Origin: Micromonospora sp. WMMD1128
GTDB taxonomy: Bacteria; Actinomycetota; Actinomycetes; Mycobacteriales; Micromonosporaceae
Assembly: GCF_027497235.1 (NCBI RefSeq)
Contig: NZ_CP114902.1
Span: forward strand, 2,927,501-2,991,500
Reading direction: 5' to 3'
Length of the DNA stretch: 64,000 bases
Below are positions 6,925 through 62,117 of the stretch, one piece after another. A model generated the notes under the pieces. The model was not told the DNA's origin. It saw nothing but the letters and a program-made list of their open reading frames with translations, and did not search any database. A program made the translations under genes and the position numbers. Position 1 is the first letter of the stretch. Each line of letters starts with the position of its first letter.

Positions 6925-7020
6925 GGAGGCGTTCAGGCGGCTGGTGCCCCTCCCGGTCTTCAAAACCGGTGTGGTCCGGGACCCGGGCCAGGCGGGTTCG
7001 ATTCCCGTCCGTCTCCGCCA
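6925..7020 (+). tRNA. selC: tRNA-Sec (UCA anticodon)
   Basis: A 96-nt tRNA with the hallmarks of selenocysteine tRNA. The acceptor stem GGAGGCG pairs with CGTCTCC (one G-U), followed by discriminator G and an encoded CCA at 7018-7020. The anticodon stem CCGGT/ACCGG (6953-6957, 6965-6969) frames a 7-nt loop with anticodon TCA at 6960-6962, which reads UGA. The long variable arm has a 6-bp stem (TGGTCC/GGGCCA) and the T arm contains GGTTCGATTCC. It lies 46 bp after the FDH operon and 23 bp before selA, so the gene order matches a dedicated Sec cassette. Confidence 0.95.
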
Positions 7021-38490: not shown

Positions 38491-39605
38491 GTGAAGACCG
38501 TGCTGATCTCCGGCGCCGGCGTCGCCGGACCGGCCCTGGCGTACTGGCTGCGCCACCACGACATCACCCCGACAGTGGTAGAGCAGGCGCCCGCGCCACG
38601 AGCCGGTGGCCACGCGGTGGACGTGCGTGGGGTGGCGCTCCAGGTGATCAAGCGAATGGGACTGACCGAACCACTACGCCGCGCCCACACCCAGATGCGC
38701 GGAATGTCGATGCTCGACGCCCACGGCACCGAGATCATGCGCTCAACCGAGATGGCACTCAGCAGCGGCCGACTCGACAGCGACGACATCGAGGTGCTCC
38801 GGGAAGACCTCACCGACATGCTCATCGACGCAACCCGACCACACACCCGCTACCTGTTCGGTGACTCCGTGACCGCACTCGAACAACACCGGGACGGCAT
38901 CCGAGCGACTTTCGACCACGCCCCGCCCGAAACATTCGACCTGGTCGTCGGCGCGGACGGTCTGCACTCCACGGTGCGGCGGCTCGCCTTCGGGCCGGAG
39001 CAGCCCCACGTGCGCCACCTCCACGCATACGTCGGCGTGTTCACCGCCCCCAACTTCCTCGACCTGGACCGCTGGCAGGTCTGGCTCCGCGCGCCGGACG
39101 TCGGCTACGGCATCTACTCGGCACGTGACAACACCGAGATCCGAGTCAACCTCGGCTTCGAGTCGGGTCCGCTCGACTACGACCGCCACGACGTAACGCC
39201 CAACGCGCACTGATCGAGGAAAGACTCGCCGGCGTCGGCTGGGAAACCCCACGACTACTCGCCGCCATGTGGCAGGCCCCTGACTTCTACTTCGACGCCA
39301 TGGCCCAGATCCACATGGACCGCTGGTCCACCGGCAGGGTCACGCTGCTCGGCGACGCCGGCTACTGCCCCTCGCCCCTGTCGGGACAAGGCACCAGCCC
39401 GCTGGTGGGCGCGTACGTGCTCGCCGACTCCCTGGCCGACGCCACCGACGACCACCGCGCCGCGCTCGATCGCTACGAACAACGGATGCGCCGGTTCGTC
39501 ACGCTCAACCAGGCACTCGCCACGGAGAATCCCGGCGGTCCGCCCTCCGAGGAGTCCACCGAACTGGCCAAGTCGGCCATCGACCTCGACGCGCGGACCC
39601 GATGA
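38491..39605 (+). pseudogene. FAD-dependent monooxygenase, frameshifted
   Basis: Group A flavin monooxygenase of about 370 aa split by a -1 frameshift near 39196-39198. First part (frame of 38491): VLISGAGVAGPALAYWL FAD motif, LREDLTDMLIDA, VVGADGLHSTVR. It runs into TGA at 39211. In the next frame the protein continues AQRALIEERLAGVGWE ... VTLLGDAGYCPSPLSGQGTS, the GD motif, to stop 39605. One missing base restores the frame between DRHDVT and AQRAL. GTG 38491 has AGGAGG. This is either a recent inactivation or a sequencing error. Family relatives hydroxylate aromatic compounds and some inactivate tetracycline or rifamycin. Confidence 0.85.
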
Positions 39606-39617
39606 CGAGCCCACACC

Positions 39618-40616
39618 TCAGAAGCCCGGCAACCCGAAAAACACCCGATTCGTGCGGTTCGCTGCCGCCGCCGCCCGCTGCTGACCCGCCGTCACCTCGA
39701 TGTACGTCTGCGACGACGCCAACGACGCGTGTCCCAGCAACCGCATGATCTCCGCCGCGCCCGCCCCGTCCTCCGCCAACCGCGTCGCGAACGTGTGCCG
39801 CAACGCGTGCAACCGCGCCCCCCGGGGCACCCGGTCACCGATGCCCGCCCGCCGGTAACACGACTCCACCAGATACTGCAGACCGCCCCGACGCAACGGC
39901 TCACCCGCCCGGTCCACCAGCAACGGCCCGTCCGGCCGCACGCTGCGCCCACCGAAACGCACCCGCCGGCTCTCCAGGTAACCGGCCAGCACCCGGTCCA
40001 CGCCCACCTCGATCGGCACCGTCCGCGGCCGCCCGCCCTTGCCCGCCACGTCAACGCGTCGCTCGCCGTCGCGCCCGGCCACCGACGACACACGCAGCGC
40101 CAGCAGCTCCGACAGCCGCAACCCGGCGCACAGCGCCAGCGCCAGCACCGCCAGGTCCCGCTCCGGCCACGGGTCACGCTGCCGGCCGTCCGCGCGCGCC
40201 ACCGCCGCCAGCAGCTCCTCCGGGGTGTCCTCGCCGCGCAGCGGCTTGGGCCGGGGGAGCGGCGTGCGCGGGCGCCCCACCGCCGGCATCGGATTGCCGG
40301 GCACGACCCCCTCGGCCACCAGGAACGTGAAGAAGCTGTTCCAGGTGGACCAGGCGCGGTGGACGGAGGCGGCGGCGCGGGGAGCGGCGAAGCGGGCGAA
40401 CGCCGCGCGCATCACCCGGGCGGAGAGGGCGCCGACGGGCAGCCGGCCGAGGGGGAGGGGAGTGCGGTCGTCACCGTCCGCCGCGACCAGCGCCGCCACC
40501 GCGTTCAGGTCCCGCCGGTACGCCGCCAAAGTGTGCGGGGAGGGCTTGCGGGTGGCCCGAGCGGTCAGGAACTCCTCGATCAACGCCCCTACCGTTTCGT
40601 CCGGTTTGTCATGCAT
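39618..40616 (-). CDS. tyrosine recombinase (Xer/integrase family)
   Basis: A 332-aa site-specific recombinase. The SAM-like N-terminal core binding domain (residues 8-115) precedes the catalytic domain with R in ALCAGLRLSELLALRV, H-x-x-R in LHALRHTFATRL, H in LLGHASLASSQ and nucleophile Y305 in SSQTYIEVT. It has the size of XerC/XerD. ATG 40616 lies inside a 26-bp dif-like palindrome, seven bases after CATAAT, so the gene is probably transcribed leaderless from a promoter that its own protein can occlude. It sits 0.4 kb from a canonical dif-like site. It may be a Xer protein or an integrase that uses dif. Confidence 0.9.
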   Translation of the reverse strand: MHDKPDETVGALIEEFLTARATRKPSPHTLAAYRRDLNAVAALVAADGDDRTPLPLGRLPVGALSARVMRAAFARFAAPRAAASVHRAWSTWNSFFTFLVAEGVVPGNPMPAVGRPRTPLPRPKPLRGEDTPEELLAAVARADGRQRDPWPERDLAVLALALCAGLRLSELLALRVSSVAGRDGERRVDVAGKGGRPRTVPIEVGVDRVLAGYLESRRVRFGGRSVRPDGPLLVDRAGEPLRRGGLQYLVESCYRRAGIGDRVPRGARLHALRHTFATRLAEDGAGAAEIMRLLGHASLASSQTYIEVTAGQQRAAAAANRTNRVFFGLPGF

Positions 40617-40634
40617 AAGGAATATTATGCATGA
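40609..40634. other. dif-like palindromic site at the recombinase promoter
   Basis: TCATGCATAA (40609-40618), spacer GGAATA, TTATGCATGA (40625-40634): 10-bp perfect inverted arms with a 6-bp spacer and ATAA/TTAT at the inner edges, the geometry of Xer core sites. The recombinase start codon lies within the left arm. A self-contained site beside its recombinase resembles single-Xer systems. Confidence 0.7.
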
Positions 40635-40712
40635 ATTTCGCGTTCCCGCCAGGCCGGCGCTCCGGGGGAGAGCGGCCGAAAAACGCTAGCCGCACACCGC
40701 GGACCGGGCCCC

Positions 40713-41033
40713 ATGGTGGAGATCGGCGAAACGCTCGTCCGCACCCTTGTCGCCGCGCAGTTCCCGCACTGGGCGCACCTGCCGGTCGACGCCGTGCCCC
40801 GGCAGGGGTGGGACAACCGGACGTTTCGCCTCGACGACGACCTGCTGGCCCGGCTGCCCAGCGCCGAGGGCTACGTGCCCGGCGTCGCCAAGGAGGACCG
40901 CTGGCCGCCTCACCTGGCCCGCCACCTGCCGCTACCGGTACCCGAACCGGTGGCCACCGGCGCGCCCGGCGCCGGCTATCCGTACCCCTGGTCGGTGCGC
41001 CGGGGAGGCCCCCATCCGGTTTACTTGACATAA
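40713..41033 (+). pseudogene. aminoglycoside phosphotransferase fragment, N-terminal third
   Basis: A 106-aa open frame beginning MVEIGETLVRTLVAAQFPHWAHLP with DAVPRQGWDNRTFRLDDDLLARLPSAEGY, the ATP-lobe start of aminoglycoside phosphotransferase (APH/choline kinase-like) proteins, which are about 300 aa. The catalytic loop (HGD) and DFG-like motif are missing. The frame stops at TAA inside the dif-like site at 41023-41049, so the rest of the gene was lost at that point. Not expected to be active. Confidence 0.8.
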
Positions 41034-41049
41034 TGTAGATTATCGAACC
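41023..41049. other. probable chromosomal dif site
   Basis: ACTTGACATAA (41023-41033), 6-bp spacer TGTAGA, TTATCGAACC (41040-41049). On the reverse strand it reads CGATAAT, two variable bases, then ACATTATGTCAAGT, which matches the actinobacterial dif consensus as I remember it. The right half has the XerD-arm pattern TTATGTCAAGT and the left the XerC-arm pattern with CGATAA. It cuts the aminoglycoside phosphotransferase fragment. There is one tyrosine recombinase gene nearby and another at 61131. Confidence 0.75.
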
Positions 41050-41103
41050 GGTGCGGAACGGTGGAAGATGCCGGACACCACCGTCCCGTGTCCGCCGTCG
41101 GGG

Positions 41104-61130: not shown

Positions 61131-62117
61131 TCAGCCGCGTCGGCGGGCCCGGGCCGCCCAGATCGCGTAAGCCGGGTCCCGGTCCAGGTTGTGCCGGTCC
61201 CGGTCGTAGCGGCGGGTGGTGCGCGGATCGGCGTGGCCCATCGCGTCCTGCACGTCCTCCAGCGGCACCCCCTCGGAGCGGGCCGTGGTGGCGAACGCGT
61301 GCCGTAGCGAGTGCGGCGACAACCGCGCCCAGGCGGCGATCCCGGCGGTCTGCGCGAGGCGGCGCACCAGCCGGAACACGGCGTGCCGGTCCAGCCGCCC
61401 GCCGGAGGCGGTGACCAGCAGCGGACCGGTCAGCTCCGGCACCGTCACACCATGGGCGGCGGCCCGGTCGGCCAGGTAGGCGTCGAGCGCGTACGCGGTG
61501 CCCGGGGTGAGCGCGCGGCGGCGTACCTTGCCGCCCTTGCCGACGAAACGGACGCTGCGGTGCCCGCGCTCCGCGCCCAGGTCGGCCAGGTTCAGCGAGA
61601 CCAACTCGCCGACCCGCAGCCCCAGGTCGGCCAGGAGCGCGACGACGGCCCGGTTCCGGGCGGCGGTCGGGCCGGTGTCGGCCTCGGCGGCGGCGAGCAG
61701 CGCGTCGACCTCGTCCGGGCTCAGCCCGACGGTGGCGGAGTGGTCCCGGTCGACCCGGGGCCGGTCGGCGGCGGCGACCGGGTTGGCCGGCACCGCCCCC
61801 AGCTTCACCAGGAAGTCGTACCAGCTCGACAGCGCGGACAGCCGGCGGGCCACGGTGGCCGGGGTGAGCGGGCGGCCGTCCCGCCCGCGCGGGGTGGACT
61901 CCAGGTCCCGGCCGTACGCGTTGACGTCGAGGAAGGTGACCCGCAGCGGCTCCAACCCGCGCTCGGCGCACCAGCGCAACCAACCGGTGACGTCCCGCCG
62001 GTACGCGTCGCGGGTGTGCTCGGACAGGCGGCGGTTGCGCAGCCACGCCTCGGTGAAGTCGGCCGGGCCACCGGGCAGGGCGGGACGCGCGCGGGGAAGC
62101 ACCTCGGGACGCAGCAT
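61131..62117 (-). CDS. tyrosine recombinase (XerC/D-type)
   Basis: A 328-aa site-specific recombinase. N-terminal core-binding domain (residues 15-120), then R in LLADLGLRVGELVSL, H-x-x-R in SPHSLRHAFATTA, H in DAMGHADPRTTRRY with Y304 the nucleophile. C-terminus DPAYAIWAARARRRG is a little longer than XerD. Not flanked by an obvious core site. With the recombinase at 39618 it may form an XerC-XerD pair for the dif at 41023, or be an integrase. Confidence 0.88.
   Translation of the reverse strand: MLRPEVLPRARPALPGGPADFTEAWLRNRRLSEHTRDAYRRDVTGWLRWCAERGLEPLRVTFLDVNAYGRDLESTPRGRDGRPLTPATVARRLSALSSWYDFLVKLGAVPANPVAAADRPRVDRDHSATVGLSPDEVDALLAAAEADTGPTAARNRAVVALLADLGLRVGELVSLNLADLGAERGHRSVRFVGKGGKVRRRALTPGTAYALDAYLADRAAAHGVTVPELTGPLLVTASGGRLDRHAVFRLVRRLAQTAGIAAWARLSPHSLRHAFATTARSEGVPLEDVQDAMGHADPRTTRRYDRDRHNLDRDPAYAIWAARARRRG

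Follow-up and report, generated by a model that had tools for sequence, protein, structure and literature searches.

The window analysed here is a stretch of 64,000 nucleotides, corresponding to bases 2,927,501-2,991,500 of the 6,814,137-base single-contig genome of Micromonospora sp. WMMD1128. It contains the gene for a Xer-type tyrosine recombinase, named here the third one since it stands beside XerC and XerD, next to a palindromic site, a fragment of a phosphotransferase gene and the chromosomal dif. The features are the following:

39618..40616, minus strand: third Xer-type tyrosine recombinase, 332 aa, with Pfam PF02899 (SAM-like N domain) and PF00589 (catalytic domain)
40608..40635, minus strand: 28-bp palindromic Xer-type core, proposed cognate site of the recombinase, from a perfect 10-6-10 palindrome at 40609-40634, conservation and co-occurrence
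40624..40629, minus strand: possible -10 hexamer CATAAT in the left arm of the core, 7 bases before the start codon, read from the sequence
40713..41033, plus strand: phosphotransferase (APH family) remnant, 106 aa, N-terminal part of Pfam APH with the 3' two thirds lost, outside the Xer system
41023..41050, minus strand: chromosomal dif, from genome-wide uniqueness, shuffles, genus conservation, terminus position and matches to published dif

In the same window, a FAD monooxygenase at 38491-39605 is read in two ORFs (38491-39213 and 39267-39605) that match the front and the back of one family and is probably frameshifted, and a tRNA-Sec gene is found at 6925-7020.

The site at 41023-41050 is the chromosomal dif. 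Its sequence, read on the minus strand from 41050 to 41023, is CGGTTCGATAATCTACATTATGTCAAGT, or CGGTTCGATAA TCTACA TTATGTCAAGT when split by the centre, and it is identical at 22 of 28 positions to the suggested dif of Frankia alni and at 23 of 28 to the putative dif of Actinoplanes SE50/110, as given in the consulted portions of PMC3025954 and PMC3364876, respectively, both of these being predicted sites. The first-pass annotation, which had recognised the dif form in 41023-41049 read backwards, is borne out by these matches. It had also proposed a genome-wide search, in which 41023-41050 is the sole match: no second copy of the inner 25 bases occurs in the 6.81-Mb genome at up to three mismatches, and the inner 19 bases gave no match in 100 shuffles of the window. 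From dnaA, located at 6,425,402-6,427,171, the antipode is placed at 3.019 Mb; dif lies 50.7 kb from this point (0.74% of the genome, or 2.7 degrees), at the terminus and opposite oriC. Exactly one dif has been found in 116 of the 121 genomes of the genus, its own included, and none at the same threshold in five; a looser pattern recovers the site in three of these (G051, G057 and G120), gives only a doubtful one in G103 and none in G091. Neither the third recombinase nor a clear dif is present in the last two genomes.

The third recombinase carries the catalytic residues R167, K193, H270, R273, H296 and Y305, and none of the six is missing from any of 31 homologues. A maximum-likelihood tree separates 31 third recombinases from 12 XerC and 12 XerD sequences by a branch supported at 100/100, and the protein encoded at 39618-40616 belongs to neither the XerC nor the XerD clade. 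Its score against TIGR02224 (158.8 bits) is below the cut-off of 335, as are those of the XerC and XerD of the 12 genomes examined. An AlphaFold model (pLDDT 80.7, pTM 0.59), together with Foldseek, indicates a tyrosine recombinase fold only and does not separate the Xer types. Values of NG86 dN/dS between 0.16 and 0.33, calculated against 10 relatives, point to purifying selection. Canonical XerC and XerD, as well as dif, have been found in 12 of 12 genomes examined, and the third recombinase accompanies them in 10. A fourth Xer-like recombinase is encoded at 61131-62117 on the minus strand, 20 kb from dif, and no Xer-type palindrome was found upstream of it; homologues with similar or lower scores lie about 6, 28, 36, 28, 29 and 86 kb from dif in G270, G230, G205, G164, G367 and G361, respectively.

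The third recombinase is found in 116 of 121 genus genomes and in 117 of 200 family genomes, representing 20 of 44 genera (E 1e-40 in both cases), and in 83 of 298 order genomes from 17 of 76 genera (E 1e-50); since all these samples consist of related species, the counts are not independent. Its nearest named relatives belong to Micromonospora (92%), and the best 80 of 407 named matches include Amycolatopsis, Kutzneria, Lentzea, Saccharothrix, Kibdelosporangium, Actinokineospora, Kribbella, Nocardiopsis, Streptomonospora, Actinoplanes, Catenuloplanes and Salinispora. A more distant branch, at about 40% identity, occurs in the family f8, of Mycobacteriaceae type, with Mycolicibacterium and Mycobacterium as nearest named relatives. 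Recombinase and dif are both present in 113 of the 121 genus genomes, on one contig in 111 of the 113, and in these 111 they are spaced by 253-3123 bases (median 629), with the same relative orientation in 110. In the exception, G099 (locus L153), gene and core are inverted relative to dif, the sole such case of the genus sample. Two loci show possible damage to the gene: in L276 (Kribbella sp. VKM Ac-2568) an in-frame stop within the matched stretch suggests a pseudogene, and in L096 (G121, genus g2) the core is present and no start in the recombinase frame reaches it, possibly due to a frameshift at the gene start.

The phosphotransferase ORF at 40713-41033 does stop in the TAA of dif, as had been noticed from the sequence, and this coincidence had led the first-pass annotation to suggest that an integrative element using Xer entered or left at dif. 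Comparison with relatives points elsewhere. In 8 of 10 relatives checked, the interval between recombinase and dif holds a full-length phosphotransferase ORF of 287-289 aa, such as the annotation had proposed to look for, which stops about 24-31 bases before the inner dif sequence; the remaining two are L035, with a differently truncated ORF of 86 aa, and L045, in which the ORF runs into dif. Relative to L033, about 0.58 kb of the interval is missing from the window and the junction is located about 20 bases outside dif. The truncation is a local deletion and not an integration scar, and the position of the stop in the dif TAA follows from it. Moreover, the duplicated dif or core expected to flank an integrated IMEX is absent from the genome, where both sites are single copies, and the distribution of the recombinase in the genus is not the sporadic one, with empty sites, of such elements. 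Given the single copies, the conserved synteny (gene and dif within 3.2 kb of each other in all 111 one-contig genus genomes) and the local nature of the deletion, integration or excision at dif was rejected.

The second site of the locus is the palindromic core, which on the gene strand reads TTCATGCATAA TATTCC TTATGCATGAC. It lies 388 bp from dif and includes the start codon of the recombinase (40616-40614), so that the perfect 10-6-10 palindrome that had been reported at this start codon, some 400 bases from dif, is confirmed at 40609-40634. The hexamer CATAAT belongs to a block conserved in the genus loci and, as a -10 element, could possibly give a leaderless transcript. No other such inverted repeat occurs in the genome at up to three mismatches. 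As 12 inverted repeats of the 11-6-11 type, matched at 10 or more positions, exist in the GC-rich window, the core included, the weight of the argument lies in conservation and not in a single occurrence. The exact pattern TGSATAAN6TTATSCA is present in 49 of 49 recombinase loci of the genus, with the start codon inside the right arm of the core, and 47 of the 49, all but L093 and L095, have arms that agree at no fewer than 8 of 12 positions.

Across genera the arms differ in sequence, yet they are often mirror images of each other, as in TTGGTGCATAA/TTATGCACCAA, TTCATGGATAA/TTATCCATGAA and TTTCCACATAA/TTATGTGGAAA. The fixed letters of the core pattern are required by the search and hence are no evidence of symmetry; at position 7 of the arm, where either side may be C or G regardless of the other, 112 of 119 distinct sites are symmetric, against a mean of 79 and a maximum of 90 in shuffles. 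Positions 3 and 4 are symmetric in 75 (shuffle mean 60, maximum 75) and 74 (mean 56, maximum 71) of the 119, respectively, and the symmetry of positions 1 and 2 remains within the shuffle range for the same sites. The 6-bp centre is palindromic in none of the 119. Overall, the agreement between the arms ranges from 7 to 11 of 11 positions, including the six that the search demands; nine cores match at only 7 of 11, which counts against reading the core as the site of a second recombination module, and the cores of Lentzea and some others are strongly asymmetric.

Core and recombinase occur together. When the exact pattern was scanned over 298 genomes of the order, the core was detected in 83 of 83 recombinase-positive genomes versus 5 of 215 recombinase-negative ones, and 81 of the 88 core-positive genomes carry one copy; the corresponding Fisher value of 2e-68 is not a corrected probability, the genomes being related. 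The genomes with a core only are G005, G292, G009, G437 and G451. By their coordinates, G005 and G292 are cases of recombinase loss at a contig edge, and G009 is perhaps another. In G123, counted among the 83, the exact-pattern match has a fully palindromic centre, is far from dif and probably arose by chance, the likely real site being a diverged palindrome 291 bp from dif. None of 15 family dif loci from genomes in which the recombinase gave no match at E 1e-40 has a core within 1.5 kb of dif, and the exact core was absent from 200 kb of random stretches of the own genome and from 84 kb around xerC and xerD. Two exact cores did turn up in the control stretches, both in L201 and L202, which are loci of the third recombinase and do not belong in a control; none of the other 42 loci counted has one. 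Moreover, a single core match at up to one mismatch occurs in 864 kb of recombinase loci at more than 1.5 kb from dif. That the palindrome could be a homodimer site of XerC or XerD was also considered and judged unlikely, since it is rare where the third recombinase is missing (0 of 15 dif loci, 5 of 215 genomes).

As a rule, the core keeps close to dif. It is located within 1.5 kb of dif in 30 of 30 and 48 of 48 genus loci, two sets with overlapping genomes, and in 36 of 42 family and 25 of 29 order loci that contain dif. Among the six family loci without such a core, five show a diverged palindrome at 243-1803 bp from dif, and in the sixth (genus g9, G128) it is found at 5.4 kb; in genus g12 the palindromes lie farther out, 0.8-1.8 kb from dif. 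The relaxed palindrome rule gave no matches in 289 kb of control loci. Among the named loci, 77 of 80 contain dif and 76 of the 77 have a core within the 1.5-kb search span, 73 of them exact, at 258-1405 bases from dif (median 478). Dif is lacking in L314, an incomplete locus, and in L316 and L317, both complete, and L329 has dif and, by the rule applied, no core. The main Micromonosporaceae group and the Pseudonocardiaceae-type loci have the core on opposite sides of dif. To look for a conserved accessory sequence between core and dif, 8-mers were counted in 68 intervals of the genus and 57 of Pseudonocardiaceae type; the top-ranking words listed all come from dif, from the core, from the sequence directly flanking these, or are GC-rich.

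The position of the gene is less constant than that of the core. In 12 of the 76 named loci (two of them from one Saccharothrix species) gene and core are separated by over 1 kb, and the core still lies 269-677 bases from dif, and in G123 (genus g4) the gene is about 10 kb away and the diverged palindrome has stayed in place. In the family f15 the gene is unlinked from dif in seven genomes (G349, G385, G391, G461, G478, G487 and G493): in five of them gene and dif share a contig at distances of 143 kb and 0.53, 0.65, 1.08 and 1.57 Mb, and in two they are on different contigs. The core is nevertheless beside dif in all seven, as a perfect 11-6-11 palindrome in three. Its persistence at dif where the gene has moved speaks both against a core that merely hitch-hikes with its gene and against one that serves autoregulation alone. 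An autoregulatory operator, close to dif by inherited synteny alone, is suggested by the overlap of the core with the likely -10 region and start codon in most Micromonosporaceae loci, but the matched gene start of most Amycolatopsis loci is preceded by the core at a distance of about 60-100 bp; this explanation is scarcely credible and, being contradicted by the unlinked genes, was rejected. Some self-repression is probable all the same, because the Micromonospora core covers the likely promoter and the start codon. Sequence comparison of these genomes establishes the co-occurrence of core and recombinase, the normally single copy of the core and its tie to dif rather than to the gene.

Mobile elements could provide another origin for this arrangement, as a domesticated remnant of an IMEX or plasmid that once used the terminus and is now a fossil or an attachment site. 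Homologues at 39% identity are indeed encoded on five Mycobacterium plasmids, and in three f8 genomes a distant homologue and a core are found on contigs of 191-216 kb (loci L171, L172, L174 and L262; contigs G299:C2, G407:C1 and G469:C2). In G299 and G469, the chromosomal dif has no core within 5 kb, and homologue and core are located on contigs of 199 and 216 kb, an arrangement that would fit a plasmid origin. These contig loci may be resolution systems of plasmids, from which the module may have arisen. G299:C2 also holds a core with the dif-like centre TCTACA. For the present module a remnant is nevertheless very unlikely: the recombinase is nearly universal in the genus and under purifying selection, dif and core are single copies, no match at E 1e-20 was obtained in 50,697 phage records, and only three of the best 80 IMG/VR matches are close, with the chromosomal arrangement of dif, core and gene. 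In these three contigs, labelled as viral (L345-L347), the group of features lies near one end, and they probably represent provirus predictions extended too far, or else proviruses close to the terminus.

The explanation that we consider rather probable is a second, single-recombinase Xer module that is tied to dif and acts between sister chromosomes. The canonical dif would presumably be used by XerC and XerD, encoded elsewhere, and the palindromic 11-6-11 core by the third Xer, whose gene starts at the core. Two recombinase dimers would bind the two sister copies of the core and swap strands across the asymmetric 6-bp centre, as in single-recombinase Xer systems, so that sister chromosomes would be resolved (or unlinked) where FtsK brings the terminus to the septum. 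Such a system could be a reserve or a condition-specific companion to XerCD/dif. We infer exchange between sister copies, and with it dimer resolution or unlinking, from the combination of symmetric arms, asymmetric centre, complete active site and single copy, the latter leaving only the sister copy or an incoming element as partner. The points that weigh against the module are the asymmetric cores, the change of side between the two main groups, the named loci in which dif or core is missing, and the two f8 chromosomes whose dif has no core nearby.

If dimers were resolved by one crossover at dif and another at the core, within 0.5 kb, the two would cancel out; some exclusive control must therefore exist, and separate timing or induction would be the simplest answer. 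The same cancelling, along with the steady closeness of core and dif (258-1405 bp, on a side that differs between groups), speaks for a recombinase that binds the core as an architectural or regulatory factor of the terminus, for instance helping or blocking XerCD at dif, with strand exchange not its main job. That role is unlikely in view of the six catalytic residues, retained throughout the homologues, of an asymmetric centre between symmetric arms, as strand exchange needs, and of the 15 loci in which dif is present in genomes without the recombinase.

For the module acting between sisters, a possible trigger is offered by the promoters of some loci. The published consensus of the mycobacterial damage promoter is tTGTCRgtg-8nt-TannnT (from the part of PMC5656591 consulted). 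A relaxed pattern, TGTC[AG]G[TGA][GC]N6-7[GT]TA, written after the loci had been seen, is matched close to the start of the gene in 53 of 62 Pseudonocardiaceae- or Kribbella-type loci (L265-L326), with 0.007 expected per search window, and in none of 18 others. The full consensus at up to two mismatches is found in 24 of 80 loci versus 0.013 expected, in a search span that reaches 10 bases into the match. The loci are related, and agreement in the -10 part is incomplete. A scan of the own region at up to four mismatches gave only scattered weak matches. A PafBC-like damage promoter at Pseudonocardiaceae-type genes is therefore a lead. Taken further, a large actinobacterial group (Micromonosporaceae, Pseudonocardiaceae, Kribbella, Nocardiopsidaceae and some Mycobacteriaceae) may possess a second, independent dif, in the form of a palindromic core a few hundred bases from dif with a dedicated third Xer. 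It would serve as reserve dimer resolution, perhaps switched on in Pseudonocardiaceae-type loci by this promoter when recombinational repair makes dimers. We propose this wider picture tentatively, as plausible without yet being the probable one. It allows direct tests of why closeness to dif matters, how the crossovers avoid cancelling and whether damage or sporulation needs extra separation of sisters; the core is also a gene-independent marker of the terminus and, with its recombinase, perhaps a small new pair of enzyme and site for use in genome work.

In the literature, a survey of 2011 covered 66 actinobacteria with a single chromosome and predicted dif in all 66 (PMC3025954, consulted portion). 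The genome papers of Actinoplanes SE50/110 (PMC3364876) and Kutzneria albida note dif, and the word recombinase is absent from the text of both. In the available part of a subgroup classification (PMC8138268) the clade of the third recombinase is not separated, and neither a third Xer nor a second site next to dif was found for actinobacteria in the accessible portion of the open-access literature. According to the sections consulted of PMC5357621, bacteria have either XerCD/dif or a single-recombinase system as its alternative; two systems side by side across a large actinobacterial group, the second with a site that stays near dif despite gene moves, would hence be unexpected.

With XerCD/dif the locus shares a simple Xer-type tyrosine recombinase, a 28-bp 11-6-11 site with inner ATAA...TTAT and the location at the terminus. 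It differs in having one recombinase and matching arms instead of two recombinases and different arms, in the separate clade of its enzyme and in coexisting with XerC and XerD. The features of single-recombinase systems are found in part: the site is usually linked to the recombinase gene, though not in all genomes; co-occurrence suggests a putative pairing of one recombinase clade with a site of like arms; and XerCD/dif has not been replaced, its three components being present in all 12 genomes examined. The first-pass annotation had offered, as its other reading, a self-contained system related to XerS/XerH that had captured the chromosomal terminus. The form of such a system holds for the palindrome and its recombinase; the capture does not, in view of those 12 genomes and of the 15 of 15 dif loci from recombinase-less genomes that are without the palindrome. 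In streptococci and lactococci, xerS adjoins difSL, a site of 31 bp with an 11-bp centre, and XerS/difSL is the alternative of its host to XerCD (PMC5357621, sections consulted). The likeness here consists of one recombinase with a site beside its gene and the difference of the retained XerCD/dif; moreover, the XerS model gives the window recombinase 64 bits against a cut-off of 267. The same sections describe XerH/difH of Helicobacter and Campylobacter as a single-recombinase system, with the recombinase near its site and a role in chromosome segregation, and mention the transposon-borne XerT and the archaeal single-recombinase system XerA. The third recombinase resembles XerH in being a single recombinase near its site and departs from it in standing beside XerCD/dif, and its profile scores higher with XerD (1a0p, 136 bits) than with XerH (5jjv, 83 bits). 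Finally, XerL/dif of Legionellales resolves dimers with a single recombinase and is the dif/Xer system of its host (PMC9765430, consulted part); the module proposed here would likewise employ one recombinase, unlike XerL, as a second system beside the canonical dif.
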